Both the position numbers and the translations under genes were made by a program. A DNA stretch of 56,806 nucleotides, taken from a virus. The DNA lies in the IMG/VR virus record IMGVR_UViG_3300010373_000054, positions 1 to 56,806 of that record; one strand, given 5' to 3'. Below the pieces are notes generated by a model that saw nothing but the letters and a program-made list of their open reading frames with translations, was not told where the DNA came from and did no database searches. Below are positions 24,086 to 39,483 of the stretch, one piece after another. Within the stretch, counting starts at the first letter, position 1. Each line of letters opens with the position of its first letter.

Positions 24086-24389
24086 ATTTTGTTTATCATT
24101 TATACACTAAACACTTTTAAAAGTCAATAGCGGTGCGAAAAATTAAAATCCATCAAAAATGTCCAAAATCCATCAATTTATCAGGCCAAAAGGTTTTAAG
24201 TCTTAGAGGGCCGTTTTTCTATATTATAATTTTTATTATATTTTATATATAAAAAGGTAGAAGAAAGTGATAAATTGATTAGCGTACCGTGTAGTACCAT
24301 TTAAAATCAATGTGTTATATTCAAACGCTTAGTCATCACTTTAAACAAAACTGATGGATTTCTGCTATTTTTGATGGAAAACTGATGGA
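24086..24389. repeat. non-coding control region A with AAAATCCATCAA/TGATGGA repeats
   Basis: No gene seen. Two exact AAAATCCATCAA copies (24145 and 24165, 20 bp apart), then an AT-only stretch (24219-24252), TGATAAATTGATTA (24268-24281), and on the far side three inverted versions: CTGATGGATT (24351), TTTTTGATGGAAA (24367) and CTGATGGATT (24382). The same elements in similar order occur at 39.2-39.45 kb. It lies between terL and the tRNA/portal genes on one strand, so could hold a promoter, an origin part or a protein-binding site. Confidence 0.7.
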
Positions 24390-25868
24390 TTATCGAACGA
24401 TCCTACCACCAAACGTACTAATTTTAGGCTTTGGTTTGCGAACCATCTGCAAAACTTCAGAGAAAGCTCGGCTTGCGGCGTCAACCATGTCATCATGTTT
24501 GGCATTTGGAAAGTTACAAATCTGATCAAGAAATTCTGCATTCCAATCACCTTTGACCAAATAAACGCCACCTGCTTCAGCTTGAGCCGCTAATGGTGTA
24601 GCTCTCATAGCCTTATCGCCAGTTTCAGGAGAAAACCTTACATCATATCCAATCAAGTCTTGCCTGTATTGTTCAACCTGTGTAAACGATGCTTGCCCCG
24701 GATCACGAGGAATGGAGATTCGAACATGAGTTCCATCTGATTCAGCATTTTGTTTCACAAGCGCACGAACAGCATTTGGGGAAAGTCGTTCGTTGTTTAC
24801 ATGAGCGATAATAACGCGATTATCAGTTGTCAGACCAATTTTAACACTTGCTGTAGGATCGTTTGTTTTCTTTGTGCCAGCCGCCAAATCGTAACCACGC
24901 GCCCAAACAACATCGTTTGGCATAGCGCCAATAAATTTATCTTCAAACCATTCACGTTTGAACATACCACCATCACGAGGAATAGGGCGCTGTTGAAGCT
25001 GTCCAGCAGTACCAAATTCACGAAGAGATTTTTCAAGTGTGTTCACGCGCTCTTCACTAAAGAATTCAGGGAACAACAATTCACCATCATTCTTTCTAGG
25101 GTCTACAAATCCAATATCAGTGTAACATCTACGTTCAGCCTCAAAACGCATAGGAAGCATAAGGTGCGTATATTCTAGTTCTTCCTCAAGAATGATCCCT
25201 GTAACATCCCGCTCGTGCAAGCGCTGCATAATTACAATTATTGCAGAGTCTTCATCGTTAACACGAGTTGGAAGAGTTTCCATGAACGCACGTTCAGCGC
25301 TCAAAAGCTCGGCTGGAGAGTTTGCATCATGTGCGCCAATAGGATCGTCAAGTATAACTCTATCGCCACGCTTACCAGTCATCTTAGTGAATGCAGCAGC
25401 TTCACGAAAACCCTCATGCTTGTTTGCAAAGTTAGACTTAGCGTTTTGATCGTCCTTAAGATTGAGAGGCCATCTCTCTTGATACCAATCTGATTCAATC
25501 AGTGTTCTTGTTTTTGTGGCGTCACGAATTGCAAGGTCTTTAACATGCGAAGTTCCAATATATCGCATATGAGGTTTATTTGCCGGTCCCCATTCCCAAG
25601 CAGGCCAGAAAACAGACGTGAGCAAAGACTTCATGAAACCGGGAGGAACGTTGATGCAAAGCCGTTTAATACGTCCATCAGTTACGGCTTCAAGGTGTTC
25701 GCAAATAGCGTCCATCGCCCATCCCCAACGCAATTGCGTTGATGGTTCCAAAATGTGCCATGAGCGTTTAACGAATTCTGCCAAAGATTCACGACATTCG
25801 GCGCGATCAAGCGCAATCTGAAGCTCCTTAAAACTTGGCAAATTAATTTGCGAAAGATCGATTGACAT
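24390..25868 (-). CDS. terminase large subunit
   Basis: 492 residues. ATPase: CINVPPGFMKSLL (Walker A type, 72-83), RVILDDPIG (Walker B, 170-178). Nuclease: ARGYDLAAGTKKTNDPTA (first Asp), KHDDMVDAASRAF near the end (last acidic cluster). It pumps DNA into the prohead and cuts the concatemer. The stop codon lies inside the control region A repeats. Small subunit gene sits 1.1 kb upstream, separated by small rightward genes. Confidence 0.92.
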   Translation of the reverse strand: MSIDLSQINLPSFKELQIALDRAECRESLAEFVKRSWHILEPSTQLRWGWAMDAICEHLEAVTDGRIKRLCINVPPGFMKSLLTSVFWPAWEWGPANKPHMRYIGTSHVKDLAIRDATKTRTLIESDWYQERWPLNLKDDQNAKSNFANKHEGFREAAAFTKMTGKRGDRVILDDPIGAHDANSPAELLSAERAFMETLPTRVNDEDSAIIVIMQRLHERDVTGIILEEELEYTHLMLPMRFEAERRCYTDIGFVDPRKNDGELLFPEFFSEERVNTLEKSLREFGTAGQLQQRPIPRDGGMFKREWFEDKFIGAMPNDVVWARGYDLAAGTKKTNDPTASVKIGLTTDNRVIIAHVNNERLSPNAVRALVKQNAESDGTHVRISIPRDPGQASFTQVEQYRQDLIGYDVRFSPETGDKAMRATPLAAQAEAGGVYLVKGDWNAEFLDQICNFPNAKHDDMVDAASRAFSEVLQMVRKPKPKISTFGGRIVR

Positions 25869-25924
25869 TGTTTTCCTTTTTGTGTATGCGTAGATGGTTA
25901 TTAACTTTTAACAGGAGAAATAGA

Positions 25925-26212
25925 ATGCAGAAAATTTTCCGATATTATGAAGACTTTGGTCGTATGGGTGATTTGGAAGGAATCTTTGTAGCGACAGAAG
26001 AAGAAATTTCTAACGCTCCAGAAACCGTTTACTTCGGTGAAGTTCTTGGTAAACACTCAGATGTTTATTCCGATGAATGGAAGAAACACATTACCGTTCT
26101 AACAGATGATCAGGAATTCATTGCAAGGGCTTTGTTCTATGGTCTTTGCGGCACTGGTTATAATCCGCTTGAATATTTCGATGATCTTGATGAAGGTAGT
26201 TTTTATGACTAA
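25925..26212 (+). CDS. small acidic hypothetical protein
   Basis: 95 residues from ATG 25925 with AGGAG nine bases upstream; an upstream in-frame start at 25862 lacks such a site. MQKIFRYYEDFGRMGDLEGIFVATEEEI and GEVLGKHSDV: a compact, acidic protein of a type carried by several phages, function unknown. Divergent from terL. Confidence 0.7.
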   Translation: MQKIFRYYEDFGRMGDLEGIFVATEEEISNAPETVYFGEVLGKHSDVYSDEWKKHITVLTDDQEFIARALFYGLCGTGYNPLEYFDDLDEGSFYD

Positions 26213-26363
26213 AGAAGAAATGGTTACAATAACAAAGAAAGAATACGATTCGCTAGTCGATTCATCATTCAAGCTTAATTGTCTTGAAAATGGAGGAGTA
26301 GATAATTGGGAATGGTATTATGAATCTTTGAAAGACGGCGGTTATTTTAACGACGAAGACTAA
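26205..26363 (+). CDS. small phage protein (EYDxL..GVDNWEWY)
   Basis: 52 residues from ATG 26205, overlapping the previous stop by eight bases. KKEYDSLVDSSFKLNCLENGGVDNWEWYYESL is a motif shared by many tiny phage proteins of unknown role. GAAGGTAG serves as ribosome site. Confidence 0.7.
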   Translation: MTKEEMVTITKKEYDSLVDSSFKLNCLENGGVDNWEWYYESLKDGGYFNDED

Positions 26364-26530
26364 CAAATTCCATAGTCATCATAATCGTCTTCAACTACAG
26401 CATAAGCGGATTTCTCGCGGTCAATTACTTCTCCCAAAGGAGTCCGCTTTTGTGTTTTCTTGTGTCCGCAATAGGTTGCAGGAGTAGCGGGAACACCGCC
26501 ATGTGGTCTATTATCATCGCAACTTGACAT
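26360..26530 (-). CDS. small Cys/His protein on the opposite strand
   Basis: 56 residues: begins MSSCDDNRPHGGVPATPATY and continues CGHKKTQKRTPLGEVIDREK. C4, H10, C21 and H23 could bind a metal ion. AAGGA seven bases before the ATG supports translation. It lies between terminase small and large subunit genes on their strand, among rightward genes, so may belong to the packaging transcript. Family not recognised. Confidence 0.65.
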   Translation of the reverse strand: MSSCDDNRPHGGVPATPATYCGHKKTQKRTPLGEVIDREKSAYAVVEDDYDDYGIC

Positions 26531-26543
26531 GAAAGGATTCCTT

Positions 26544-26765
26544 ATTAATAGAGTAAAATTTCACATTAACGAAAAAGTAAGGATCAAGGACTTTCCAGAT
26601 TACTCGTATGACGAAAAATTCCCGTCACTTGCGCCGGGATCAGTTGGGCGCGTAATTGATACATGGTCTAAGAATAACTTTAACCGTCAGGAAACACATA
26701 TTCATGTTAAATTTGATTGTGGAAATGTATTTCCGTTTTATTTGGAAGAATTGGAGAAAATATGA
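26544..26765 (+). CDS. SH3-like small protein
   Basis: About 73 residues. The only in-frame ATG (26529) has no ribosome site; an ATT at 26544 has AAAGGA six bases upstream, so I place the start there with caution. VKFHINEKVRIKDFP...GSVGRVIDTW...HVKFDCGNVFPFYLEELEKI reads as an SH3-like barrel, one of the recurrent small folds of this genome. Ends in ATGA overlap with the next gene. Confidence 0.6.
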   Translation: MNRVKFHINEKVRIKDFPDYSYDEKFPSLAPGSVGRVIDTWSKNNFNRQETHIHVKFDCGNVFPFYLEELEKI

Positions 26766-26941
26766 AAATCAGCGAGCTTGTCGATAAGCTAAACAAGGTA
26801 AAAGAAACATTTGGAGATCTTCGGGTTGAGACAGAAACAGGTTTTAACTATACGGTAACTTCAATATCAGTTATAGACGAAGATGGACATCTTTGTTCTG
26901 AAAGGCGCAAAGAAGAAGCTTATTCGGTTTGGATTGAGTAG
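26762..26941 (+). CDS. MKxxEL family small protein
   Basis: 59 residues from ATG 26762 (ATGA overlap). MKISELVDKLNKVKETFGDLRVETET..YTVTSISVIDEDGH: an N-terminal helix MKxxELxxxL, then a GD-x-x-V strand and beta hairpins. Four more genes here share that plan (29932, 30137, 31988, 35113). Role unknown. Confidence 0.7.
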   Translation: MKISELVDKLNKVKETFGDLRVETETGFNYTVTSISVIDEDGHLCSERRKEEAYSVWIE

Positions 26942-26958
26942 GGGATTATTCCCCTACT
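26937..26958. terminator. hairpin shared by convergent genes
   Basis: AGTAGGGG-ATTATT-CCCCTACT. The rightward TAG lies in the left arm and the leftward TAA in the loop, so one hairpin closes both genes. The flanking T/A runs are short, so termination may be partial. Confidence 0.65.
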
Positions 26959-27413
26959 TCCTCATATTCAGCTTCAATAGCCAAAGTCTCTTGTTTTTGA
27001 ACAATATTCATCAGAGCCTTGATTTCTTCAGGCGACATTGTTTCAAGATTGATCTTGTGGTTAGTTTCAACGCTAACATCAATCTGCTTTTTATCCTGCC
27101 ATTGACCAAGACCAGAACCACGAAGCGCAAGACTTGCGGCCTGAACCGATGGACCGCTTTCCGCTTTAATCATCTTTGTTTCCCAAGCAAACAAACGCTT
27201 GTCAGATGCAATCTCACAAAGTTCAGCAAATTCAGGATATTTCTTTACCCAATTATAAATTGTTCGCCTGCTGACGCCTAGTTGACCAGCAATAGCTTCA
27301 AGGGAATATCCTTGTTCTGATAGTTCAGTTACCGTCTTACCAACAGATATGTCGAATTTGCTTTCAAAGACGCCAGTCTGTTCATTCTGAATTCTTTTTG
27401 TAGCTCGCGCCAT
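26946..27413 (-). CDS. terminase small subunit
   Basis: 155 residues. N-terminal helix-turn-helix (GYSLEAIAGQLGVSRRTIYNWVKKYPEF, about 36-61), central helices (LFAWETKMIKAESGPSVQAASLALR) and an acidic tail. This is the DNA-recognition plan of small terminases; pac/cos selection is the expected task. 1.1 kb upstream of terL on the same strand. Another HTH role cannot be excluded. Confidence 0.75.
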   Translation of the reverse strand: MARATKRIQNEQTGVFESKFDISVGKTVTELSEQGYSLEAIAGQLGVSRRTIYNWVKKYPEFAELCEIASDKRLFAWETKMIKAESGPSVQAASLALRGSGLGQWQDKKQIDVSVETNHKINLETMSPEEIKALMNIVQKQETLAIEAEYEEVGE

Positions 27414-27431
27414 TTATTTTCCTTTTACCGC

Positions 27432-27461
27432 TTGCATTGTAAATAAAACTATGTTTATATA
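27432..27461 (+). promoter_or_regulatory. rightward promoter of accessory operon
   Basis: TTGCAT, 18 bp, TATATA. The TATATA hexamer is also the -10 of the leftward promoter. Drives 27500 onward. Confidence 0.55.
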
Positions 27462-27484
27462 CCATTATAAACGTAAAAAGTCAA
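27456..27484 (-). promoter_or_regulatory. leftward promoter of terminase small subunit
   Basis: TTGACT, 17 bp, TATATA read leftward. It overlaps the inverted repeat GTTTATA-TACCAT-TATAAAC (27453-27472), which could be an operator that decides between the two directions. Confidence 0.65.
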
Positions 27485-27499
27485 GATTGGAGATAGATT

Positions 27500-28063
27500 A
27501 TGAATTCGAAAGAAGGGCATCATAGTTGGATGATATGGACTGCAAGAGAGAAAGCTAAACTTTTACACGTACATCAAAAAAGAAAATACACGGAAGAGCC
27601 TTATATTAATCATGTTGAAGCTGTAGCTACCAAGTTGGTTTCTTGGGGTTTTGATGATACACATATGATCTGTGCCGCATTATTGCATGATATTGTAGAG
27701 GATTGTAATTATTCGTTTGATCTAATAAAAGATGGTTGGGGATTTACAACAGCTCAATACGTATGGCATTTGACAAATGTTCCTCATATGGCTGGCAATC
27801 GTGCAAAGCGTCATACAATGGACGTTCAACGACTTTCGCAAGCTCCTTGGCAGGCGAAAGTTATCAAGTGTGCAGATTTGATCGATAACACATCTACAAT
27901 CGTCAAATATGATCCAAACTTTGCAAAGATTTATCTTGACGAGAAGAAAGATATCGTATCTAAGTTTGTTGAGGATTTTGATATCCCAAACCACGTTATC
28001 AAAGAATTAGTAGAGGTTTTAGAGAATGCCATTAAAGAGCTTGAAGAAGTACAAAATCGTTAA
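27500..28063 (+). CDS. HD-domain (p)ppGpp hydrolase-like protein (SpoT/MESH1 type)
   Basis: 187 residues, the size of small alarmone hydrolases. H38 (EPYINHVEAV), H63-D64 and E67-D68 (ALLHDIVED), and D126..DN130 (VIKCADLIDNTSTI) are the metal and substrate residues of the RelA/SpoT hydrolase domain; there is no synthetase domain. It would remove 3'-pyrophosphate from (p)ppGpp, keeping transcription and growth up during infection. First gene of the rightward operon. A related nucleotide substrate is possible. Confidence 0.8.
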   Translation: MNSKEGHHSWMIWTAREKAKLLHVHQKRKYTEEPYINHVEAVATKLVSWGFDDTHMICAALLHDIVEDCNYSFDLIKDGWGFTTAQYVWHLTNVPHMAGNRAKRHTMDVQRLSQAPWQAKVIKCADLIDNTSTIVKYDPNFAKIYLDEKKDIVSKFVEDFDIPNHVIKELVEVLENAIKELEEVQNR

Positions 28064-28199
28064 CTCATATACGGGTGAATTTTTTAAATCATACCGTTCG
28101 TTCAAAACAGCATATGATACCGTTCTTGCGCTAAATTATATGGAACGCTCGAATGGTCAATTTAATAACCCATGGGAGATTAAATATCTTGATTCGTAG
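28026..28199 (+). CDS. small basic/aromatic protein
   Basis: 57 residues, starting inside the end of the HD gene in another frame. MPLKSLKKYKIVNSYTGEFF.. continues with SYRSFKTAYDTVLALNYMER. Short alpha/beta look; resembles small phage proteins with a YxI..xTGE start, role unknown. Confidence 0.6.
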   Translation: MPLKSLKKYKIVNSYTGEFFKSYRSFKTAYDTVLALNYMERSNGQFNNPWEIKYLDS

Positions 28200-28311
28200 T
28201 AGAGAAGAAGCTGTAGCTTTCATAAAATATAAACTAGAAAATGATTATTATTTTCTACCATTTGAAGCTGAAGAAAAATGGATAAAGCAACTTATGGAGG
28301 AAAACAAATGA
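28189..28311 (+). CDS. 40-residue protein, TTG start
   Basis: TTG at 28189 follows GGGAGAT at good distance and overlaps the previous stop. The product is charged and helical (SREEAVAFIKYKLEND). Stop overlaps the next start (ATGA), which argues for translation. Confidence 0.5.
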   Translation: MIRSREEAVAFIKYKLENDYYFLPFEAEEKWIKQLMEENK

Positions 28312-28430
28312 TTGATCCTTTCACGCTTATGATCGTGGTTGCTGTAGGATCGTTCCTAGGTCATGTAATTTATGATCTAGTCCTTTACTTCTTTTATGGA
28401 GATGATGACGATGAAGGTTCTTTTTCTTGA
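28308..28430 (+). CDS. small membrane protein
   Basis: 40 residues: a single membrane helix (TLMIVVAVGSFLGHVIYDLV) and an acidic tail GDDDDEGS. Preceded by GGAGG; overlaps both neighbours. Unknown role. Confidence 0.6.
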   Translation: MIDPFTLMIVVAVGSFLGHVIYDLVLYFFYGDDDDEGSFS

Positions 28431-28908
28431 TTGCGATGGAGTATTGAACGATACTAATGATCTTTCTGTTCGTTCTGGAAGGTTCGAGCATGATGATTCA
28501 GGGTTTATCATCAATACGCAAAAAGTTCGTTTGTTGCAGGATATTGTAGAGCAGACTGATTGTAGGATTGTTTTGTCTTCTGCTTGGCGACTTTGGGATG
28601 AAGCCATTAAGACGCTTGAATATTATGGAATTGAGATTTATGATGTAACGCCTTCATTCAGCGGACCTCGTGGAGGTGAAATTCAATTTTGGCTCAACAA
28701 TAGTAAAGTTGAAATTGAACGATACGCAATTGTTGATGATGATAGTGATATGTTGGATCACCAATGGAAGTTTTTCTTTCAAACTGATCATGATTATGGA
28801 TTGACAAAAACAATTGCGTATAGGATAACTCATTATCTCAACAAAGGAAGGAAGGAAATAGTTGATTATGGAGAATTATGGGCCAAGCTTGATGGAAGCT
28901 CTATTTGA
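28411..28908 (+). CDS. HAD-superfamily phosphatase
   Basis: 165 residues from ATG 28411 (GGAG nine bases before). D7-C-D9-G-V (motif I), VLSSAWR (motif II), and AIVDDDSDM (motif IV) define a HAD fold of the type found in RNA/DNA end-repair proteins (HAD of Swiss-army-knife family). It probably removes a phosphate from nucleotides or nucleic acid ends. Confidence 0.8.
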   Translation: MKVLFLDCDGVLNDTNDLSVRSGRFEHDDSGFIINTQKVRLLQDIVEQTDCRIVLSSAWRLWDEAIKTLEYYGIEIYDVTPSFSGPRGGEIQFWLNNSKVEIERYAIVDDDSDMLDHQWKFFFQTDHDYGLTKTIAYRITHYLNKGRKEIVDYGELWAKLDGSSI

Positions 28909-29002
28909 AAATCGCCGCCCTTGGCAAGAGACAGCAGAGCTTGTAATTGCTTTTGCATCCGGGGCAATCCTTAGTTACTGTTTTGTGGTGTATGGACTAT
29001 GA
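28868..29002 (+). CDS. small membrane protein
   Basis: 44 residues, one membrane helix near the C-terminus (TAELVIAFASGAILSYCFVV). Lies in another frame across the end of the HAD gene and ends in ATGA overlap with the next gene. Confidence 0.55.
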   Translation: MENYGPSLMEALFENRRPWQETAELVIAFASGAILSYCFVVYGL

Positions 29003-29217
29003 GTGAATTAATTAGAGAAGAATTTGAAATCGAAGTTGCAAAAGCTTTTGCCGGTTACTGTCAAGAGCCATTCGAAGAATGGATTGAATATGCACAAAAG
29101 CTTGTTGCTAACGACCTTGAATGGCAGAAGATCGAATATGGCGATCCTGAGTATGCTTGGGATGCTGAAGCAGCTAAGGAGCTTTCTGATATTGATATCA
29201 GCTATTGGGAAGTTTAA
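28999..29217 (+). CDS. small acidic protein
   Basis: 72 residues, acidic and helical with many aromatic residues (FAGYCQEPFEEWIEYAQKLV). No family recognised. ATGA-coupled. Confidence 0.65.
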   Translation: MSELIREEFEIEVAKAFAGYCQEPFEEWIEYAQKLVANDLEWQKIEYGDPEYAWDAEAAKELSDIDISYWEV

Positions 29218-29231
29218 GAGAGGATTGACAA

Positions 29232-29405
29232 ATGCTTTCTATCTTCACTAACACAATTGAAGGTTTGGTTGAAGCAACAGTTAACACGATCAAGGCACCT
29301 ATTGGAGCGGCACTATTGCCTCTCGACAATGGCAAAACATTGAATGATGCTGTAGAAGGTGTTACCGAGGGTCTTGAAAAGGTTGGAAAGAGTGATGAAA
29401 TCTAA
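29232..29405 (+). CDS. small amphipathic protein
   Basis: 57 residues after a clear GAGAGG site. LSIFTNTIEGLVEATVNTIKAPIGAALLPLDNGKTL looks like an amphipathic membrane-active helix followed by a soluble tail; similar phage proteins exist, function unknown. Confidence 0.6.
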   Translation: MLSIFTNTIEGLVEATVNTIKAPIGAALLPLDNGKTLNDAVEGVTEGLEKVGKSDEI

Positions 29406-29550
29406 TTTCGTGCTTCTAGTCATTAGTCTATTGGTTGTGGCTGTATGCATTTATCTCAGCTGGTTGACTCCTGCCTTCTTTTGGGGCATAGTCTCTATCA
29501 TGACAACGATTAACATTTTGATGAAAAGGAAAGATGATGACGCAGAATAA
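29395..29550 (+). CDS. two-helix membrane protein
   Basis: 51 residues from ATG 29395. Two membrane helices (VLLVISLLVVAVCIYLSW and FFWGIVSIMTTINILM) with a charged tail KRKDDDAE. Overlaps both neighbours. Confidence 0.6.
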   Translation: MKSNFVLLVISLLVVAVCIYLSWLTPAFFWGIVSIMTTINILMKRKDDDAE

Positions 29551-29932
29551 ATATGTAGTCGGTAAGAAGTATAAGATTGGTTTTGATTGGTGGGGGTATT
29601 CGGATGCGATTGTAAAGGTAATTTCTATCAGAGGAAATGACTATAGCACGCACAATACAATTAAAGTTGAATATGAAGATGGAAGTACAAAAGAATTTCA
29701 TACATCAAGCATTGTAGATCAGTACACAACTCCATACGAAGAAGAAAAGACTATTGTCACTGAAAAAGTGACTAGGGTTATTGAGGCTGGTGAATATGGT
29801 CATGTTTGGGTAGATAATTTTGAAGTTGGTGTTGATAAGCACATCACTATTGAAGTGAATAGCAATGTCTTCACAAAACAAACATTGGGTGACCTTATCA
29901 AAACCCTAAACGAAATTCATGAGGTTATGTGA
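29537..29932 (+). CDS. SH3-like plus GxYG module protein
   Basis: 131 residues. N-terminal SH3-like barrel (YVVGKKYKIGF..DAIVKVISIRG..IKVEYEDGS) and C-terminal module VTEKVTRVIEAGEYGHVWVD..TIEVNS..TLGDLIKTLNEI. The second module recurs in proteins at 30414, 35385, 44246 and 45843. Probably a protein- or nucleic-acid-binding accessory; no catalytic residues seen. Confidence 0.7.
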   Translation: MTQNKYVVGKKYKIGFDWWGYSDAIVKVISIRGNDYSTHNTIKVEYEDGSTKEFHTSSIVDQYTTPYEEEKTIVTEKVTRVIEAGEYGHVWVDNFEVGVDKHITIEVNSNVFTKQTLGDLIKTLNEIHEVM

Positions 29933-30132
29933 TGAAAGTAATTGAACTTATTGAAAAGATGACATCGCATCTAAAGGAAAATCCTGATATTGCAGATCAC
30001 GAAGTTTTCCTTTGCTTTGAAGAAACGGATGATGGAGGTGAAGAAAGAATGTATCGAGATATTGAAATTCTTGACGCTTTGCCAAACATTATTGACTCAA
30101 CGCCTAAGTATTGGCTTTATAATTGGGAATAG
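29932..30132 (+). CDS. MKxxEL family small protein
   Basis: 66 residues from ATG 29932 (TGATG overlap). MKVIELIEKMTSHLKENPDIADHEVFLCFEE; same plan as 26762 and others: helix, then D-H-E-V strand, acidic loop. Confidence 0.7.
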   Translation: MKVIELIEKMTSHLKENPDIADHEVFLCFEETDDGGEERMYRDIEILDALPNIIDSTPKYWLYNWE

Positions 30133-30136
30133 TGTG

Positions 30137-30316
30137 ATGAAAGTTAAAGAACTACTACAAATACTGAATAACTTTATTGATAACGATCCATCAGCTATGG
30201 AATATGAAATCAATATGAATAATGAACGCGAATATTACGATGAAGATGTAGAAACCCCTATCGTGGATGTTGTCATATTCCCCGAATATAAGCATGTAAC
30301 CCTATACAAATATTAA
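30137..30316 (+). CDS. MKxxEL family small protein
   Basis: 59 residues. MKVKELLQILNNFIDNDPSA-MEYEINMN..., then PIVDVVIFPEYKHVTLYKY. Tandem paralogue of its upstream neighbour. Last gene before a strong terminator. Confidence 0.7.
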   Translation: MKVKELLQILNNFIDNDPSAMEYEINMNNEREYYDEDVETPIVDVVIFPEYKHVTLYKY

Positions 30317-30322
30317 TAACAA

Positions 30323-30348
30323 AGAGCGCTTCGGCGCTCTTTTTTTTT
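30323..30348 (+). terminator. intrinsic terminator
   Basis: AGAGCGC-TTCG-GCGCTCT followed by T8; the UUCG tetraloop makes it very stable. Three bases later a new promoter starts. Confidence 0.92.
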
Positions 30349-30350
30349 GT

Positions 30351-33244: not shown

Positions 33245-33486
33245 TTGAAGTTGGCAAAAAATATTATGTAGTGTCCGATATTTATGATTGGATTGATCCT
33301 ATGGAAAAAGTAGAGGTGCATACCCATGAAGATGGGGAAATGCCCTTTGTAGTCCACAGGCATGAAGATGGTTCTTGGCTTACTTCAGGTTATATAGATG
33401 AATATGACTTGCTTAGTGCTGATGAAATCATTAAGGTATGGCAGTATCACAGGATGATGGTTGATTCGTTTGAAAGGCATGGATGA
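33241..33486 (+). CDS. SH3-like acidic protein
   Basis: 81 residues, ATGA-coupled. Opens IEVGKKYYVVSDIYDWIDP, then two H-E-DG turns, and a helical C-terminus. Member of the GxxY barrel group. Confidence 0.65.
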   Translation: MIEVGKKYYVVSDIYDWIDPMEKVEVHTHEDGEMPFVVHRHEDGSWLTSGYIDEYDLLSADEIIKVWQYHRMMVDSFERHG

Positions 33487-33650
33487 TGGAGTACACGACT
33501 ATTGTCAGTGAATTGAATGATTTGCTTGAGCGAATGGGACTAACGCTAAGTAATGAAGAAGGTGATGATTGGTGGGTGTACGAATCAGAGCGAAAAGCGC
33601 TGGTTCATGCAATTGGGATTATTAACGATTTGATTGATGAAAGGAAATAA
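33486..33650 (+). CDS. small helical protein
   Basis: 54 residues, helical, overlapping the previous stop by one base (TGATG). TIVSELNDLLERMGLTLSNE then DDWWVYESERKALVHAIGII. Role unknown. Confidence 0.6.
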   Translation: MEYTTIVSELNDLLERMGLTLSNEEGDDWWVYESERKALVHAIGIINDLIDERK

Positions 33651-33651
33651 A

Positions 33652-34080
33652 ATGAAAGTTAGAGCTATTGAAGGCTGTCACCGAAACCTTACCGCTGGAA
33701 AGATTTATGATGTAGTGAGCATTTCAGAGGGTGGAGAATATTGGCGTGTTGTTGATGATAATGGTAACACAGACGGTTACATTCCTGACTTTCACTTCGA
33801 AGTCGTAGAAAAAGAACCAAAGATTGAAGTCGGTAGTCTGTGGATTCATGACAATGGTCTTGAGTATGAAGTTACTGCTGTCGGTGAGAAGGTTGCTTTG
33901 GCAAAACACGACGATGTCGAATACCAAGTGCGAATTAGTAATTTTGGTAAATCGTATAAACCAAAGCCTAAAACAGTGACGATGTATTTTTACAAAATGA
34001 ACAATGGCGAATATGAGTCATATTCATGGAAGATTCACGATGTTCCATTTTCATTTAAGCGTGAGATTGAACTACCATGA
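33652..34080 (+). CDS. double SH3-like protein
   Basis: 142 residues from ATG 33652 (AAAGGAAATAA). Two barrels: MKVRAIEGCHRNLTAGKIYDVV..YWRVVDDNGN..FHFEVVEKE and IEVGSLWIHDNGLEYEVTAVGEKVALAKHDD. The same ribosome site and start context occur before 44932, which suggests copying between the two early regions. Confidence 0.7.
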   Translation: MKVRAIEGCHRNLTAGKIYDVVSISEGGEYWRVVDDNGNTDGYIPDFHFEVVEKEPKIEVGSLWIHDNGLEYEVTAVGEKVALAKHDDVEYQVRISNFGKSYKPKPKTVTMYFYKMNNGEYESYSWKIHDVPFSFKREIELP

Positions 34081-34268
34081 TTGATATTGAAAAACGTTGG
34101 CAGATTGGTAAAACAATCGTTGATCCGCCTAGTGGTTGGAGGTATGGTTTTCCTGCACCATTGCAGGAAGACTATACAAAACAGCTTAAGGATGCTGGAT
34201 ATCCTGAAAAGGATATTGATATGGCGTTGAAACACTCTAGATATTGGGAAAGAGATTATGAAGATTAG
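34077..34268 (+). CDS. GWRYGFP-type phage protein
   Basis: 63 residues. SGWRYGFPAPL and DAGYPEKDIDMAL..RYWERDY are conserved in a known tiny phage family of unknown function. ATGA-coupled. Confidence 0.7.
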   Translation: MIDIEKRWQIGKTIVDPPSGWRYGFPAPLQEDYTKQLKDAGYPEKDIDMALKHSRYWERDYED

Positions 34269-34581
34269 AGCATTAGTTGATGATTCACCTTGGAGTGGTT
34301 TCAAAAAGGGTGACGTTTTTGAAGCTACATTGAATTATAATGAAGAAGCATATATCTTTATTGATAAAGACGGAAATAAAAGGCTTAGGTTTAGGTTTAT
34401 TGGTGATTTCGAAGTCGTCAATGAAGTAGTAAACAAAGAGCGAGAAAGCATTATCAAAGAGTTAGAGGGTTTGAATTTTCGTGCATGGAGTTATGGAACT
34501 TATGAGGATATCCATGTCCATGTAAGCGAGATGAATGCACTTGACAAGGCTATTGAGATTTTGAAAGGGATGAGGCGATGA
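34258..34581 (+). CDS. SH3-like protein with helical tail
   Basis: 107 residues. MKIRALVDDSPWSGFKKGDVFEATLNY...IFIDKDGN..RFIGDFEVVNE (barrel), then a helical half RESIIKELEGLNFRAWS...NALDKAIEILKGM. Confidence 0.7.
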   Translation: MKIRALVDDSPWSGFKKGDVFEATLNYNEEAYIFIDKDGNKRLRFRFIGDFEVVNEVVNKERESIIKELEGLNFRAWSYGTYEDIHVHVSEMNALDKAIEILKGMRR

Positions 34582-34745
34582 AAGAAACAAACATGGATAG
34601 GTTGATTTCAATCTATGAAAGATTGACTTACGAACATGTAAAGTCAGTAAATAAGCATGAATTCAGATCGGCAGAAGAGTATAGAAAGTGTTTTGAACTT
34701 TTGTCTACTGTTATCATTTATTGCTCGCAGAAGGAAGGGTTTTGA
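34578..34745 (+). CDS. small helical protein
   Basis: 55 residues, ATGA-coupled, helical (MDRLISIYERLTYEHVKSVN). No family recognised. Confidence 0.6.
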   Translation: MKETNMDRLISIYERLTYEHVKSVNKHEFRSAEEYRKCFELLSTVIIYCSQKEGF

Positions 34746-34747
34746 TT

Positions 34748-34951
34748 ATGACAGACAACATTAACGGAATGAGTAAGACAAGACTTTCAATGTTTGCTGA
34801 TAGTCTCAAGGATTTGACTTATAAGGAGATGAGCTACATATCACAGTGTATAGTTGATGAAATTGCTACTTATAATCAAACTCCTTGGACTCCGGCTGAC
34901 GTTCTAGTGACTGTGGCTGATAATCTATTGGAGGAATTGAATGAAACGTGA
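34748..34951 (+). CDS. small helical protein
   Basis: 67 residues from ATG 34748 (AAGGG). SKTRLSMFADSLKDLTYKEM.. and TPADVLVTVADNLLEELNE. Not recognised. Confidence 0.6.
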   Translation: MTDNINGMSKTRLSMFADSLKDLTYKEMSYISQCIVDEIATYNQTPWTPADVLVTVADNLLEELNET

Positions 34952-35126
34952 CTTGGATGATATCATTCTATGGCCTGACGAAACATGGTGCTTTTATTCT
35001 GAACTTTGGGAATTTCATTGGATGAGTGATGATTACGAAGTCATAAGTTATGGAACTGACAGATGGACAGAATTCCTTAATTCAAACGAAAGTAGTAAAG
35101 GGTTGCCACAATATGAAAGCAAGTGA
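34941..35126 (+). CDS. DDIILWPDxTWCFxSEL-type phage protein
   Basis: 61 residues. LDDIILWPDETWCFYSELWEF and SDDYEVISYGTDRWTEFL form a motif found in many unrelated phages; role unknown. Overlaps both neighbours. Confidence 0.7.
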   Translation: MKRDLDDIILWPDETWCFYSELWEFHWMSDDYEVISYGTDRWTEFLNSNESSKGLPQYESK

Positions 35127-35289
35127 ACTAATCAAGTTGCTAGAATCGGAGATTGAGAAGTATGGTGATTTGGTGGTAAAATACTATCATAAGGCAGGAG
35201 ATACAACACCATATGATGTTTGCTCTTACGACTTCTTTGGTAACTATACTAAAGAACGAAACAAAGCTGTAGAAATCTTTATCCATTAA
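35113..35289 (+). CDS. MKxxEL family small protein
   Basis: 58 residues from ATG 35113. MKASELIKLLESEIEKYGDL then VVKYYHKAGDTTPYDV. Fifth member of the family; again the last gene before a terminator. Confidence 0.65.
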   Translation: MKASELIKLLESEIEKYGDLVVKYYHKAGDTTPYDVCSYDFFGNYTKERNKAVEIFIH

Positions 35290-35293
35290 ACAT

Positions 35294-35319
35294 AAAGGTC
35301 GCATTTAGCGGCCTTTTTT
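35294..35319 (+). terminator. intrinsic terminator
   Basis: AAAGGTCGC-ATTTA-GCGGCCTTT and T run, with one G-T pair. The next promoter begins two bases later. Confidence 0.85.
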
Positions 35320-35320
35320 A

Positions 35321-35349
35321 TTGACATATGGTTGCAGATGTGAGAGTTT
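35321..35349 (+). promoter_or_regulatory. phage promoter
   Basis: TTGACA, 17 bp including TATGGTTGCAGATGTGA, then GAGTTT: good -35 and upstream part, weak -10. Confidence 0.55.
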
Positions 35350-35384
35350 AAGGAAACGAAACACGAGATAAGGAGTTATTGATT

Positions 35385-35792
35385 ATGGTTGATATTAAAG
35401 TTGGTGATTGGGTGAAGGCTAATGGTTGGAGTAAGTTTTACGAGGTTGTTGAGTCTGAAGGTAACAACATTACAGTTTTGAATTCTTGGGGGAAAAGATA
35501 CTCGTACTCATTAGAAGACTATGACTTCATCATCCGCGAAAATCCTACACCTTCGCCAGTGCGTGAAGTAGTGACTAAGGAATTGGTTGATGGCGTTTAT
35601 GGGCGGGTGTTGGTTGACGGCGTTTATGGGCGGGTGATGATTAAAGAAATTCAAGGAGAACCAACGTTTAATATTGTCAATCGCTTTGGTGAGTGCGATC
35701 CACTTGCTAATATGCAAGTTCTAAACGCCAAAGAACTTAGAGAGCTGGCACAAACATTGAATGAAGTTGCAGAGTTTTTGGAGAGTGAGTGA
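35385..35792 (+). CDS. SH3-like plus GxYG module protein with internal duplication
   Basis: 135 residues from ATG 35385 (AAGGAG). Barrel KVGDWVKANGWSKFYEVVES..., linker, then the module VTKELVDGVYGRVLV..NAKELRELAQTLNEVAEFL. The segment LVDGVYGRV is present twice in a row from a 27-bp tandem duplication with one base changed. Confidence 0.7.
   Translation: MVDIKVGDWVKANGWSKFYEVVESEGNNITVLNSWGKRYSYSLEDYDFIIRENPTPSPVREVVTKELVDGVYGRVLVDGVYGRVMIKEIQGEPTFNIVNRFGECDPLANMQVLNAKELRELAQTLNEVAEFLESE
35583..35636 (+). repeat. 27-bp in-frame tandem duplication
   Basis: Copies 35583-35609 and 35610-35636 differ at a single base and keep the frame, repeating nine residues in the core of the GxYG module. 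Confidence 0.9.
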
Positions 35793-35862
35793 CATATATG
35801 ACCTATTACCACTAAAACAAGCATTAAGGGGTAATGTAAGGCTCTTTAATCAGAAATAGCCA

Positions 35863-35891
35863 TTGACTATGACCTATGGTTGTGAGATTAT
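35863..35891 (+). promoter_or_regulatory. phage promoter
   Basis: TTGACT, 17 bp, GATTAT with TGTGA before the -10. Upstream (35793-35862) I see no gene, only a possible weak stem ATTACC/GGTAAT. Confidence 0.7.
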
Positions 35892-35918
35892 GGGTTATTG
35901 AAACAAGGAGATAATGAA

Positions 35919-36086
35919 ATGAAGACGTATCGGATTGATGGTGTTTACCAACACGGATATGAAGAATGGTTGACTATTGGATGTCCTGAAGATGAGGTCG
36001 GCAGACATATTGAAGATTATCTTGAAGAGAGAACCCCTAACGGGGAAAAGCGATTCAAAAGTATTATCGTTACAATTGAAGACTAA
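35919..36086 (+). CDS. YxIDGVY family small protein
   Basis: 55 residues after AAGGAG. YRIDGVYQHGYEEWLTIGCP-EDEV..YLEE..KRFKSIIVTIE. Paralogue of 36768 (same IDGVY, WL, CPxDEV, FKxI landmarks). Single-gene transcription unit. Confidence 0.7.
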   Translation: MKTYRIDGVYQHGYEEWLTIGCPEDEVGRHIEDYLEERTPNGEKRFKSIIVTIED

Positions 36087-36108
36087 GGCGCTCTAAGCGC
36101 CTTTTCTT
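36085..36108 (+). terminator. intrinsic terminator
   Basis: AAGGCGCT-CTA-AGCGCCTT then TTCTTTT; starts inside the stop codon of the gene before it. Confidence 0.88.
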
Positions 36109-36222
36109 TTGTCCTTTAGGATCGCGTAACATGCATTATGGAACTGTTTCGGATGCGGAATGATCACTAAAAACAGGCATTTTTATGATCCAAAAAATAT
36201 TTGTCATGGTTCATTTTTCCTA

Positions 36223-36251
36223 TTGTAAACTGTGAAGAATCGTGAGATAAA
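36223..36251 (+). promoter_or_regulatory. phage promoter
   Basis: TTGTAA, 17 bp, GATAAA with CGTGA before the -10. The stretch 36109-36222 before it holds no gene that I can see; it contains a second possible -35 (TTGTCA, 36201). Confidence 0.7.
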
Positions 36252-36279
36252 GAATGCAACGAAGCAAGGAGATACGGAA

Positions 36280-36510
36280 ATGAACGTTACGGTAGTTTCA
36301 AAGGAAGAAGGCAGAATTCAAGTTGAAATCGAAATGAAGAATACGATGCTGGAAGATGAGAAATATTGCGTAGTATTTGTAGAATTCAATGGCCGTATGA
36401 TTGAAACTGTTTACGTTCAACGCAAAAATGGAAAGTATGCAGAACTAAACCCACAAAAACATCGTTATCAGTTTAACAGGGTTGCTGAAATTGCAAGAAA
36501 GGCGCTCTAA
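36280..36510 (+). CDS. small beta protein, stop inside terminator
   Basis: 76 residues from ATG 36280 (AAGGAGAT). NVTVVSKEEGRIQVEIEMKN...YVQRKNGKYAELN..VAEIARKAL. Last four codons and stop are the left arm and loop of the terminator. Not recognised. Confidence 0.65.
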   Translation: MNVTVVSKEEGRIQVEIEMKNTMLEDEKYCVVFVEFNGRMIETVYVQRKNGKYAELNPQKHRYQFNRVAEIARKAL

Positions 36511-36524
36511 GCGCCTTTTTCTTT
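36498..36524 (+). terminator. terminator overlapping CDS end
   Basis: AAAGGCGCT-CTA-AGCGCCTTT plus TTC-TTT. The TAA stop spans the loop and right arm. Confidence 0.88.
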
Positions 36525-36544
36525 GTCTAAATGTAATTTAGTTG

Positions 36545-36573
36545 TTGACTTATGGTTCATGGTATGGGAATGT
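36545..36573 (+). promoter_or_regulatory. phage promoter
   Basis: TTGACT, 17 bp (TATGGTTCATGGTATGG), GAATGT. Follows the repeated CTTTGTCTAAATGTAATTT leader. Confidence 0.6.
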
Positions 36574-36600
36574 AAGTCATCGAAACAAGGAGATAAGCAG

Positions 36601-36771
36601 ATGCCTAAATACATGATTCAGGTTCTTGGAACATATCTTGAATGCGTTGGTGAAACTGTAGAAGAGCTTCGCATTAATGGTATGAAGCTTAAGAACAAAC
36701 ATAACCTATCTGGCATGACTTATCGCATATTCAAAGATTATAAGTTTGTGAAAGATTGTGTGTTCTCATGA
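36601..36771 (+). CDS. small hypothetical protein
   Basis: 56 residues after AAGGAGATAAGCAG. KYMIQVLGTYLECVGETVEE then INGMKLKNKHNLSGMTYRIF; alpha/beta. Coupled (ATGA) to the next gene. Confidence 0.65.
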   Translation: MPKYMIQVLGTYLECVGETVEELRINGMKLKNKHNLSGMTYRIFKDYKFVKDCVFS

Positions 36772-36941
36772 GTTCAACATACGGAATAGATGGCGTCTAT
36801 TCATGTGGAATGAAAAGATGGCTTATGCTTAATTGTCCTGCTGATGAAGTAGTAGAATGTGTTCAAATGTATTTAAACGAAAAAATTGACGGTAAGCCGA
36901 AATTCAAAGAAATTAGGATTTATATTGAAAGGCGTTATTAA
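36768..36941 (+). CDS. YxIDGVY family small protein
   Basis: 57 residues. YGIDGVYSCGMKRWLMLNCP-ADEV..YLNE..KFKEIRIYIERRY, paralogue of 35919. Its last codons and stop fall in the terminator hairpin. Confidence 0.68.
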   Translation: MSSTYGIDGVYSCGMKRWLMLNCPADEVVECVQMYLNEKIDGKPKFKEIRIYIERRY

Positions 36942-36953
36942 CGCCTTTTTCTT
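36928..36953 (+). terminator. terminator overlapping CDS end
   Basis: AAAGGCGTT-ATT-AACGCCTTT plus TTCTTT. Stem differs from the GCGCT type by compensating changes, which supports selection on the hairpin. Confidence 0.88.
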
Positions 36954-36973
36954 TGCCTAAATGTAATTTCCTG

Positions 36974-37002
36974 TTGCAATGGTCTATGGATTGTGCGATA
37001 AA
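36974..37002 (+). promoter_or_regulatory. phage promoter
   Basis: TTGCAA, 17 bp (TGGTCTATGGATTGTGC), GATAAA: close to the consensus. Confidence 0.72.
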
Positions 37003-37033
37003 GAATTCAGAGAAAAACAAAGGAAACATACGA

Positions 37034-37267
37034 ATGGCTAAAGCTTACTTCCTTCCACTGGTTTCACTCCCTGTAATTATTGATGAGCCGGGTGAATACG
37101 TAACACGTTGTGGTGATGTTGTTACAGTAACCATCGTTAGCACAAGACATGATTTGAATTGCCATGGCTTCTATAATGATGGTCATGTCAACGAAAGCTG
37201 GCACAAGTCAGGTCGTCTATATGCAACAACTGAAAGCTTCAATGATATTGTTTCTAAGGCGCTCTAA
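37034..37267 (+). CDS. YxTRxG family small protein, stop inside terminator
   Basis: 77 residues from ATG 37034. PGEYVTRCGDVVTVTIVS..CHGFYNDGHVNESWHKSGRLY..FNDIVSKAL: a phage family with Y-x-T-R-x-G and W-x-x-SGR landmarks, widespread and uncharacterised. Stop lies in the terminator loop. Confidence 0.72.
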   Translation: MAKAYFLPLVSLPVIIDEPGEYVTRCGDVVTVTIVSTRHDLNCHGFYNDGHVNESWHKSGRLYATTESFNDIVSKAL

Positions 37268-37281
37268 GCGCCTTTTTCTTT
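37256..37281 (+). terminator. terminator overlapping CDS end
   Basis: AAGGCGCT-CTA-AGCGCCTT plus TTTCTTT; same sequence as at 36498, followed by the same CTAAATG leader. Confidence 0.88.
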
Positions 37282-37301
37282 GCCTAAATGCATTTTTCCT
37301 G

Positions 37302-37330
37302 TTGCAATGCATTTTAATCTATGCGATAAA
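37302..37330 (+). promoter_or_regulatory. phage promoter
   Basis: TTGCAA, 17 bp (TGCATTTTAATCTATGC), GATAAA. Confidence 0.72.
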
Positions 37331-37357
37331 TGATTATCGAACCAAGGAGAGATAACA

Positions 37358-37558
37358 ATGTCAGACAAGGTTTTTGGTTATGATCTTCAAGATATCCTTG
37401 ATGGTCAACAGCGAAAAGGAAAGCTAGTCTCTAACCCAATTGATTTATCCAAGACTGGAGATTATGGGGCTGATCCTATTGGCGATGGTACTTTTCGTAT
37501 GATCCCTAGTGGTGACATTGTTGACTTTGAAGAAAGAAATAAAAGGCTTAAAAGATAA
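37358..37558 (+). CDS. IPSGDIVDFEERNKRL-type small protein
   Basis: 66 residues after AAGGAGAG. GDGTFRMIPSGDIVDFEERNKRL is a motif of a tiny phage protein family of unknown role. TAATG overlap with the next mini-gene. Confidence 0.7.
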   Translation: MSDKVFGYDLQDILDGQQRKGKLVSNPIDLSKTGDYGADPIGDGTFRMIPSGDIVDFEERNKRLKR

Positions 37559-37644
37559 TGTTGATAGCACATGGCATAGTGATCGTATTTCTGGTAGCAA
37601 TATTCATGGTTTATGTGTGGATAGTAAAGGAGAACTTGAGATGA
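37558..37644 (+). CDS. 28-residue membrane peptide
   Basis: Starts in a TAATG overlap and ends in ATGA overlap with the next gene. One membrane helix (IVIVFLVAIFMVYVWIV) with a basic end. The double coupling argues that it is translated. Confidence 0.5.
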   Translation: MLIAHGIVIVFLVAIFMVYVWIVKENLR

Positions 37645-37802
37645 TATCTTACTGGCTAGGAATAAATGCCTATCGTCAAGGGAATTTTAAGAATCCTTTC
37701 ACATATGCAAGCCAAGATTGGCGGGATTGGAATGAAGGATGGTATGCAGCTCTTTATCAGGAGAAAGGCTATAAGCCTAAGTATATTGGTGAGAGAAGAT
37801 GA
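37641..37802 (+). CDS. RMF-like small protein
   Basis: 53 residues after AAAGGAG. GINAYRQGNFKNPFTYASQDWRDWNEGWYAAL has the G-x-x-A/NP-Y/F ... W-x-x-GW plan of ribosome modulation factor/CrpP-like small proteins. RMF itself silences ribosomes; here only the resemblance is claimed. Confidence 0.6.
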   Translation: MISYWLGINAYRQGNFKNPFTYASQDWRDWNEGWYAALYQEKGYKPKYIGERR

Positions 37803-37873
37803 CTATTTTTGATTTTCTTATAATACTTGCCGCCTTTGCTTTGTTCTTTTTTATTGAATGGTTATGTAGTTAG
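37799..37873 (+). CDS. 24-residue membrane peptide
   Basis: ATGA overlap with the RMF-like gene; almost purely hydrophobic (FDFLIILAAFALFFFIEWLC). Could be a real mini-protein. Confidence 0.45.
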   Translation: MTIFDFLIILAAFALFFFIEWLCS

Positions 37874-37899
37874 CATCCTAATCATTCCATTTGAAATGA

Positions 37900-37929
37900 T
37901 TGACCTTGTATATCATTAGCATGGATAAT
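37900..37929 (+). promoter_or_regulatory. possible promoter
   Basis: TTGACC, 18 bp, GATAAT. The 37874-38045 stretch has no credible gene, so its transcript may be non-coding or merge with the next unit. Just upstream is an AATCATT/AAATGATT dyad (37880-37901). Confidence 0.45.
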
Positions 37930-38045
37930 GGTTCATGTGCGCGAGATTGAGGGCAATGGATGATGGAGAGGGGTTTGTTTGCTTGATATAATTCCTATAA
38001 CTAAAGCTAAGTCTGTCATAGGTTTAGTAACTTATTAGGCTGGAT

Positions 38046-38080
38046 AAAGTGGAATTATTTTCACTTTTCCGGTCTTTTTG
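38046..38080 (+). terminator. intrinsic terminator
   Basis: AAAGTGGAA-TTA-TTTTCACTTT stem with T-rich tail (TTTTCCGGTCTTTTT). Would end any transcript from 37900, leaving an RNA of about 130 nt. Confidence 0.6.
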
Positions 38081-38082
38081 TG

Positions 38083-38111
38083 TTGACGTGGCTTCAGAGA
38101 TATGCGATAAC
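38083..38111 (+). promoter_or_regulatory. phage promoter
   Basis: TTGACG, 17 bp (TGGCTTCAGAGATATGC), GATAAC, directly after the terminator. Confidence 0.72.
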
Positions 38112-38141
38112 AAAATCACAGAGAAACAAGGAGTTACGGAA

Positions 38142-38354
38142 ATGAATGCAACTTACTTTGTAAAGAACGAAAACACTCTTGGTTATGTTTATCCTGCACA
38201 GCCTGAATTCTTCAACATCATTGCAGGGAAGCCACAGATTGGCGGCGATAATTGGGTGGATGGATTCGTTGCAATTGGAGAGTCAGATAAGTTAAGGGTT
38301 GCAACTAAAGAAGATTTTGATCATTTCAGAGTTTGTAGCAAAAACCACATCTAG
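38142..38354 (+). CDS. DFDHFRV-type phage protein
   Basis: 70 residues after AAGGAG. NTLGYVYPAQPEFFNIIAGKPQ..GGDNW..KLRVATKEDFDHFRV matches a common tiny phage protein whose C-terminus is conserved as R-x-AT-x-x-DF-x-x-FR. Role unknown. Single-gene unit. Confidence 0.72.
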   Translation: MNATYFVKNENTLGYVYPAQPEFFNIIAGKPQIGGDNWVDGFVAIGESDKLRVATKEDFDHFRVCSKNHI

Positions 38355-38360
38355 CTAATT

Positions 38361-38387
38361 AAGGAGCCGAAAGGCTCCTTTTTTTAT
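38361..38387. terminator. bidirectional terminator
   Basis: AAGGAGCC-GAAA-GGCTCCTT with T7 to the right; A-rich to the left. Separates converging genes at 38354 and 38384. Confidence 0.9.
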
Positions 38388-38656
38388 TTCTCAAAACCTT
38401 CGAACTCAACAAACTGTTTGCGTCTAGGTCCATATCTGTCATCTTCGATATAGTCATATTCAGCCCAATATGAAGCAGGCAGGATGTTGAATACCTCCTT
38501 ACCGTCACGAGTGACAAGGATAGGGTCTTCAGGCTTGATTGTGCCGTCAGCAATCAAATCTCTCACCAAAGGGCAGATAGGTGACTTTTTCATTTTAGCC
38601 ATGCTTCGCTCTTTGTATCGAGCAGTAAAAGAGCCTTCAAGTTGAATTTCGATCAT
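38384..38656 (-). CDS. hypothetical protein
   Basis: 90 residues; GAAAGGAG five bases before ATG. Basic N-terminus (ARYKERSMAKMKKSPICPLV), then VRDLIADGTIKPEDPILVTRDG. Could be a small DNA- or protein-binding factor, but I recognise no family. Confidence 0.6.
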   Translation of the reverse strand: MIEIQLEGSFTARYKERSMAKMKKSPICPLVRDLIADGTIKPEDPILVTRDGKEVFNILPASYWAEYDYIEDDRYGPRRKQFVEFEGFEK

Positions 38657-38772
38657 GATACTCCTTTCATTAGTTGTTATTTACATCAGCGGTAAGCCGC
38701 TCACGCGATTTTAACCCCTGTCAGGTAAAATCCTACCCGACAAGAGTTATCGTTGTTCTTTGGTGTTAATGC

Positions 38773-39195
38773 TCACAAATGTCTTTTTGTGGCCCTTTCT
38801 ACTCTATATGTGAAGTCATTATCAAAAGACTTAACCAAAAAACATTTCGATGTCGGAATTCCGACATCGTAACCACATATATCTTCAGGCTTCAAAAAGA
38901 AAGCCTTCCAGCTATCTCCATCCTCAACACCAACACAAATAAAGGATTTGCCTCCAGCTTCATTAAACGACCTATGCCAACCAATTTGCGCCGGTCGAAC
39001 CTTCCTTGGATAAAGTAGGCCGTTTCTGAACTCCCCAACTTTCAATTCAATGAAAAAAGGGTAGTCGCAAAGCAAAGCAGTCAAATCGGGAATCCCCGGC
39101 TTCATTCCTCTCGCTGGCTCAATTCTTGACCACCATACGCCATCACGATCAAAAATGTTTGTCATGTCTTTTCGAAAATCGTCTTCAGTTCTCAT
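38773..39195 (-). CDS. VRR-type / Holliday-junction resolvase-like nuclease
   Basis: 140 residues from ATG 39195 (GGAG six bases before); ATG 39210 adds five. PGIPDLTALL (D37), FFIELKVGE (E50, K52) and RPAQIGWHRSF form the PD-(D/E)xK core of VRR-NUC/phage resolvase-like nucleases. It would process branched DNA from replication. Sits next to control region B. Confidence 0.8.
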   Translation of the reverse strand: MRTEDDFRKDMTNIFDRDGVWWSRIEPARGMKPGIPDLTALLCDYPFFIELKVGEFRNGLLYPRKVRPAQIGWHRSFNEAGGKSFICVGVEDGDSWKAFFLKPEDICGYDVGIPTSKCFLVKSFDNDFTYRVERATKRHL

Positions 39196-39483
39196 GTTTT
39201 CTCCATTCATCAGTTTTTGCCAAAATCCATCAATTTTACAAGTGATTTGGTTAGTTTCTTAAAAGAGCGTGAAAAGTATATTGTGAAATTTGTATATAAT
39301 TTTATTTTTATTATTTATTTTTGATAAATTGATTAAAATAAAGAAAGAAAGAAAGAAATATCTCTCTAAACCTTTATTTTTATTGAGCTTTTAAAATCCA
39401 TCAATTTTGGCTTTTCAACACATTTTTGATGGAAATTTTGATGTTCTGTAGTGACAATATGTCGCATTGACGCATTTTTCAAC

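Follow-up and report, generated by a model that had tools for sequence, protein, structure and literature searches.

Two collinear repeat elements as candidate paired replication origins in a phage genome

Two non-coding regions, R1 (24143..24393) and R2 (39205..39440), lie about 15 kb apart in the 56,806-nucleotide stretch of viral DNA analysed here (IMG/VR virus record IMGVR_UViG_3300010373_000054, positions 1 to 56,806; "the window") and carry the same short repeats. What would a phage use such a duplicated element for? A first-pass annotation had noticed the common repeat architecture of the two distant regions and offered three candidate roles, namely paired origins, a packaging- or partition-type site, or binding sites for one regulator. 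The shared architecture was confirmed, and we consider it probable that the same replication-origin-type element, in which iterons flank a DNA unwinding element (DUE), is present twice, as R1 and as R2. Of the three roles, paired origins are the best supported: the two regions contain the two lowest-stability segments of the genome, iterons flank these segments, the pair is kept in relatives with lineage-specific words, and replication genes adjoin it there. All of this evidence is sequence-based. Binding sites for one regulator are the main rival, while a packaging site is unsupported.

Shared words, stability and layout of R1 and R2

An exact-repeat search of the whole record found AAAATCCATCAA at exactly four positions (24145, 24165, 39222 and 39393) and nowhere else, and TGATAAATTGATTA at exactly two (24268 and 39322), as had been claimed. 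The inverted motif TTTTTGATGGAAA does start at 39423, but its first copy starts at 24368, one base away from the claimed 24367; the full shared word ATTTTTGATGGAAA begins at 24367 and 39422. The common words of R1 and R2 are one 17-mer and two 14-mers. They follow the same order in both regions, as originally described, and their spacing is also kept: since the R2-minus-R1 offsets are 15,057 for CCAAAATCCATCAATTT, 15,054 for TGATAAATTGATTA and 15,055 for ATTTTTGATGGAAA, the two regions are collinear to within 3 bp. Given the existence of the words, the chance of such offset agreement is about 0.0009. Between the shared words, hardly any alignment can be made.

No other pair of 400-bp bins in the genome has as much in common as R1/R2, which share 52 8-mers (37 in the runner-up pair); in 2,000 dinucleotide shuffles of these bins the count averaged 12.6 and never exceeded 31. 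The core word TCCATCA is similarly concentrated, with 8 of its 27 genome copies located inside R1 and R2 versus 0.25 expected (binomial P = 9e-11). Beyond the sites listed by the first-pass annotation, there are minus-strand sites at 24348 and 24379, weak sites near 39205 and 39438, and one site at 39720. A search of viral contigs with the exact 17-mer returned nine single matches; paired sites were not clearly clustered at any of them, and the word is thus lineage-specific. When about 946 60-bp segments of the whole genome were ordered by stability, the least stable one was found in R2 and the second least stable one in R1.

R1 comprises roughly 250 non-coding bases between the stop codon of the terminase large subunit gene terL (24390..25868, minus strand) and the tRNA-Pro gene; tRNA-Gln and tRNA-Pro (23928..24085, minus strand) flank it on the side away from terL. 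Two plus-strand sites that are 20 bp apart, AAAATCCATCAAAAA (24145..24159) and AAAATCCATCAATTT (24165..24179), are followed by an AT-rich core (24214..24256; the second least stable segment begins at 24215), a purine tract and the shared 14-mer TGATAAATTGATTA (24268..24281, plus strand). Three minus-strand sites close the element: GAAATCCATCAGTTT (24348..24362), GTTTTCCATCAAAAA (24368..24382), which is 20 bp from the previous site, and ATAATCCATCAGTTT (24379..24393), which is 11 bp further on and overlaps the terL stop codon. The complement of the 14-mer matches the IHF consensus with one mismatch, in R1 and R2 alike, which is only suggestive of an IHF-type site; R1 also contains a perfect match, AATCAATGTGTTA (24305..24317, plus strand), to the consensus only.

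R2 is laid out collinearly with R1 and is located directly upstream of a leftward gene for a predicted VRR-NUC or Holliday-junction-resolvase-like nuclease (38773..39210, minus strand). It begins with a weak plus-strand site, ATTCATCAGTTT (39205..39216), that overlaps the start codon of the nuclease gene and is 20 bp from the strong site AAAATCCATCAATTT (39222..39236, plus strand). The AT-rich core (39286..39345), which holds the least stable 60-bp segment of the genome, the shared 14-mer TGATAAATTGATTA (39322..39335, plus strand) and a polypurine (AAAG)n tract (39340..39358, plus strand) come next, and then another plus-strand copy of AAAATCCATCAATTT (39393..39407) and the minus-strand site AATTTCCATCAAAAA (39423..39437), with a degenerate copy 11 bp further on. 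An outlying site, GACTTCCATCAAATT (39720..39734, plus strand), lies near a rightward promoter-like sequence.

This sequence, TTGACA-18-TATAAG at 39671-39700, precedes an orphan plus-strand gene (39802-40140) for which there were zero relatives in viral_contigs. To the right of R2 (39484-39526 and 39555-39719), two 21-bp tandem repeats (AATACACTTTCCATAAACCAT) and recurring CTATATGAAAT words were observed; they possibly form a second, different cluster of binding sites.

Matched pairs of elements in relatives

As judged by terminase and primase together, the closest relative is G002 (IMG/VR 3300017682_000022), with 52% identity in the terminase and about 32-33% in the primase over its length; searches of viral_contigs with the window primase alone or the window helicase alone found no relatives. 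In G002, all seven copies of the word AAAAGTGTA are found within two gaps that are 21 kb apart. The first G002 element is located directly 3′ of the primase gene and 5′ of the same nuclease gene that adjoins R2, and the second is upstream of the helicase gene. G018, a sister of G002, matches it without a difference across 135 bp of the first element's core, versus about 87% in the surrounding block. Two more genomes, G008 (IMG/VR 3300023283_000146), where the word is CTACTCGACCT, and G017, contain paired collinear elements, one near the terminase and one near the helicase gene. A second set of dense repeats, AGTCTTACGTAAGACT, which is separate from the CTACTCGACCT pair, occupies two G008 gaps that are 3 kb apart (6538-6684 and 9424-9651).

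Named relatives, the Pseudomonas phages Ab18 and Lydia (Mesyanzhinovviridae) and Rhizobium phage I65, were reached via the G017 primase, and the long gaps that precede the terminase and SNF2 helicase genes in these phages were taken for comparison. Each contains a duplicated element, the copies being 86% identical over 305 bp in Ab18 (inverted), 76% over about 200 bp in I65 and 85% over 55 bp in Lydia, with one copy upstream of the SNF2 helicase gene and the other upstream of the gene for the terminase small subunit. Thus, the architecture is the same in the window phage, G002, Ab18, Lydia and I65, while the words are specific to each lineage. No description of the paired element was found in the open-access papers searched, although the YuA genome paper, which lay outside that search, may have noted the pair; the Ab18 paper makes no mention of an origin of replication.

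An unbiased procedure was applied to a small, non-random sample of genomes: within a genome, only the two loci >2 kb apart that melt most easily were compared for shared words. It gave z scores of 9.6 for the window, 6.5 for G002, 37.7 for Ab18, 9.9 for Lydia and 24.7 for I65; in the last four genomes, as in the window, the paired regions occupy stability ranks 1 and 2. G008 scored 11.4, for its second repeat pair, and G017, with paired regions at low-stability ranks 1 and 8, failed the word-sharing test (z = -1.3). In six control phages (G001, X3_2, P106B, iEPS5, RDJL3 and Vibrio phage 1.111.A), z ranged from -1.6 to 1.1 and pairing was absent.

Single iteron/AT elements were seen next to primases similar to that of the window in two of these controls. 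In Salmonella phage iEPS5 (L100+L101; 58750-59023), 8 of 11 GTTACAA copies surround the lowest-stability segment beside the primase gene, and the element is a candidate origin for Chi-like phages. In Vibrio phage 1.111.A (L104 39842-40180), TTCCCTTA-type repeats in opposite orientations flank an AT-rich core that adjoins a Toprim gene; this single element is likewise a candidate origin. An apparent pair of elements in the latter phage was rejected as low-complexity words, and repeats common to gaps B, C and D of iEPS5, which consist of a GC-rich word (CACGCCGCGTATATC) and have no AT core, were put aside as promoter-like. A palindromic GTGTACA repeat cluster was also noticed in non-coding DNA about 2 kb upstream of the terminase gene in L008 (7690-7985), a contig too short to show a partner.

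The window record is linear and cuts an SNF2-type helicase gene (14..1165, plus strand), which is truncated by the contig start; the two ends of the record considered here are window positions 1-1165 and 56716-56806. The product is short by about 167 N-terminal residues relative to its 550-aa G002 relative. The genome is therefore incomplete, and, since in relatives an element copy is found directly upstream of this gene, a further AT core surrounded by WTCCATCARWTT sites is predicted upstream of the window helicase. Elsewhere in the window, the early blocks encode small proteins (29534-29932, 35379-35792, 44246-44947 and 45843-46241) with a motif resembling G-x-YGR/H and, after it, a helix that ends in LNEI/LTKI, and the small proteins of both blocks are apparently a paralogous family.

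Candidate initiator, proposed mechanism and alternatives

The standard arrangement in origins that depend on an initiator is an AT-rich unwinding element bordered by iterons. In the window, the most likely initiator is the phage's own Toprim/SF3 (DUF5906) primase-helicase (52274..54523, minus strand), which scores 73.8 bits against DUF5906 (cut-off 27.6) and matches the helicase region of NrS-1 at E = 2.9e-8 (the NrS-1 structure was identified through PMC7102993); among the window genes scanned, no DNA polymerase was seen. The sites are probably bound by this P4/NrS-1-type enzyme. A model of its C-terminal part (predicted local distance difference test score, pLDDT, 70.6) gave weak fold matches only, many of them to winged-helix proteins (best Z 4.4), which suggests but does not establish a C-terminal winged helix; P4 alpha was absent among the matches listed. 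From a full-length fold predicted from one sequence (pLDDT 32), no interpretation was drawn. Several records annotate the primase-helicase as an "integrase": ORF22 of Ab18 (L122 18393-20768), EVC13_017 of I65 (L126 10695-13055) and UFK26616 of RDJL3 (L102 7017-9353). The Ab18 paper inferred possible lysogeny from this label on ORF22.

The following scheme can be proposed from these features. In each element, two sets of iterons (WTCCATCARWTT) flank the AT-rich DUE with its purine tract and a possible IHF-type bend; their spacing, mainly 20 or 11 bp, places the sites on the same helical face. The initiator would bind the iterons, melt the AT core and load the helicase. Theta replication would begin at R2, which is in the early/replication region, and R1, in the late region by the terminase gene, would act as a second origin and/or as a bound-protein fork block that prompts a switch to concatemer synthesis, as proposed for oriL and oriR of phage SPP1. 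The identity of the initiator, origin activity, the separate roles of R1 and R2 and the theta-to-sigma switch are all inferred from the features described above.

Several observations weigh against paired origins. With 13 kb between them, the primase gene does not adjoin R2 as it would in origins of the Staphylococcus aureus pathogenicity island (SaPI) type, and the search with the C-terminal fold returned zero matches at E <= 0.001, with only a weak winged-helix likeness. DnaA boxes are not enriched. GC skew, which the first-pass annotation had suggested as a check for origins, helps neither way, for it mirrors gene direction alone: both GC skew and codon-3 skew track gene orientation and carry no origin signal. 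Finally, both elements are upstream of leftward genes, and AT-rich intergenic repeats also fit operators.

This last point leads to the main alternative, in which a single transcription factor of the phage would occupy clusters of sites around a pair of promoters, with the AT core serving as promoter, and would coordinate the replication-gene and late/packaging operons. Both elements indeed lie upstream of transcription units of the same direction, the Ab18, Lydia and I65 copies precede helicase and terminase genes, where early and late promoters are expected, and iEPS5 shows that promoter-like words can recur across several intergenic gaps of a phage. Yet R1 sits between terL and a tRNA gene and not ahead of an operon start, and a consensus search found zero σ70-type promoters in it, versus 1.7 in shuffles (the R2 count is at chance level). 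The 305-bp copies in Ab18 are inverted, one of them relative to its neighbour genes, while all annotated genes share one direction, and this speaks against a plain promoter; the occurrence of the two least stable segments in the paired regions of five phages goes beyond ordinary promoter needs. We consider an operator pair unlikely. Protein binding at the sites would not alone separate an origin from an operator.

A further explanation, which we rate as considerably less probable, is an arrangement like that of P4 ori and crr, in which one copy fires and the other, bound by the same initiator, is a cis-acting partner looped to it. The same site layout in both copies and the weak match of the candidate initiator's SF3 helicase domain to the P4-family primase model agree with this, but the score against that model (TIGR01613) is 33.6, far under the cut-off of 108.7, and the full AT-rich core in both copies makes both look origin-competent. 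A packaging (cos/pac) or partition site is very improbable. R1 does adjoin terL, and one copy is directly upstream of the terminase small subunit gene in Ab18, Lydia and I65; however, the terminase linkage does not hold for R2 or for either copy in G002, the second copy in each phage is by a helicase or nuclease gene, and no ParA/ParB-type genes were seen among the part of the proteins scanned. There is just as little to recommend a remnant of an old duplication or recombination that is currently without a role: the copies have diverged, such that R1 and R2 hardly align between the words, but the words and their spacing were retained while the remainder diverged, no base differs between G002 and G018 across 135 bp of the core, and distant phages carry the pair again with other words.

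Paired origins thus remain the favoured reading, and a wider proposal, which we put forward as possible but doubtful, can be built on it. The window phage, G002, the Mesyanzhinovviridae and the rhizobial relatives would all have two duplicated iteron/DUE origins, one by the replication genes and one usually in the late region, served by a single primase-helicase; the words would change between lineages while the copies stay matched, and the late copy would be a programmed concatemer switch, a counterpart of the SPP1 system that relies on another initiator. For most phages, no origin has been mapped. If the proposal is true, origins could be located from sequence alone, as the two most meltable loci with shared words, in a group to which Pseudomonas phages that are easy to grow belong (Ab18 and the YuA-like Lydia); it would provide a second, independently built case of the two-origin arrangement of SPP1, and why phages keep two matched origins would become directly testable.

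Comparison with known systems

P4 alpha serves two distant cis regions, ori and crr, with the same short repeats. The window differs in that an AT-rich core is present in both copies and in that the similarity of its enzyme to the P4-family primase model is weak. The duplicated element, the repeat words and the coincidence with the two least stable genome segments are shared with Ab18 and Lydia of the Mesyanzhinovviridae and with Rhizobium phage I65, whereas the words and flanking genes differ.

The Rep helicases of SaPIs recognise iterons by their C-terminal domain, and the origin is directly downstream of the rep gene (PMC7581432). As in origins of the SaPI Rep and SCCmec (staphylococcal cassette chromosome mec) Cch2 types, the window iterons flank an AT-rich core, here in non-coding DNA; a P4/SF3-type primase-helicase is encoded in the window; and the first G002 element is directly downstream of the primase-helicase gene. 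Unlike in SaPIs, the window primase gene (52274-54523) is remote from R2 at 39.2 kb, so that the element is not directly downstream of the primase-helicase gene, and there are two copies of the element tens of kb apart.

In SPP1, oriL and oriR are 12-13 kb apart, each with repeats and a DUE, oriR interrupts late genes, and gp38 is the origin-binding protein; a fork block at oriR has been proposed to switch the replication mode, with a Holliday junction resolvase helping (PMC6316719, PMC3485210). The window resembles SPP1 in having two separate regions with the same repeats and an AT-rich unwinding element in each, one in the replication region and the other within the late region, and in encoding a Holliday-junction resolvase, which in the window phage is only predicted. 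It differs in that its sites are oppositely oriented around the AT core and in that its replication protein is a Toprim/SF3 primase-helicase, whereas SPP1 uses a DnaB-type helicase with a loader. The arrangement is best explained as an organisation like that of SPP1 oriL and oriR, in which each unit would resemble a SaPI-type origin.

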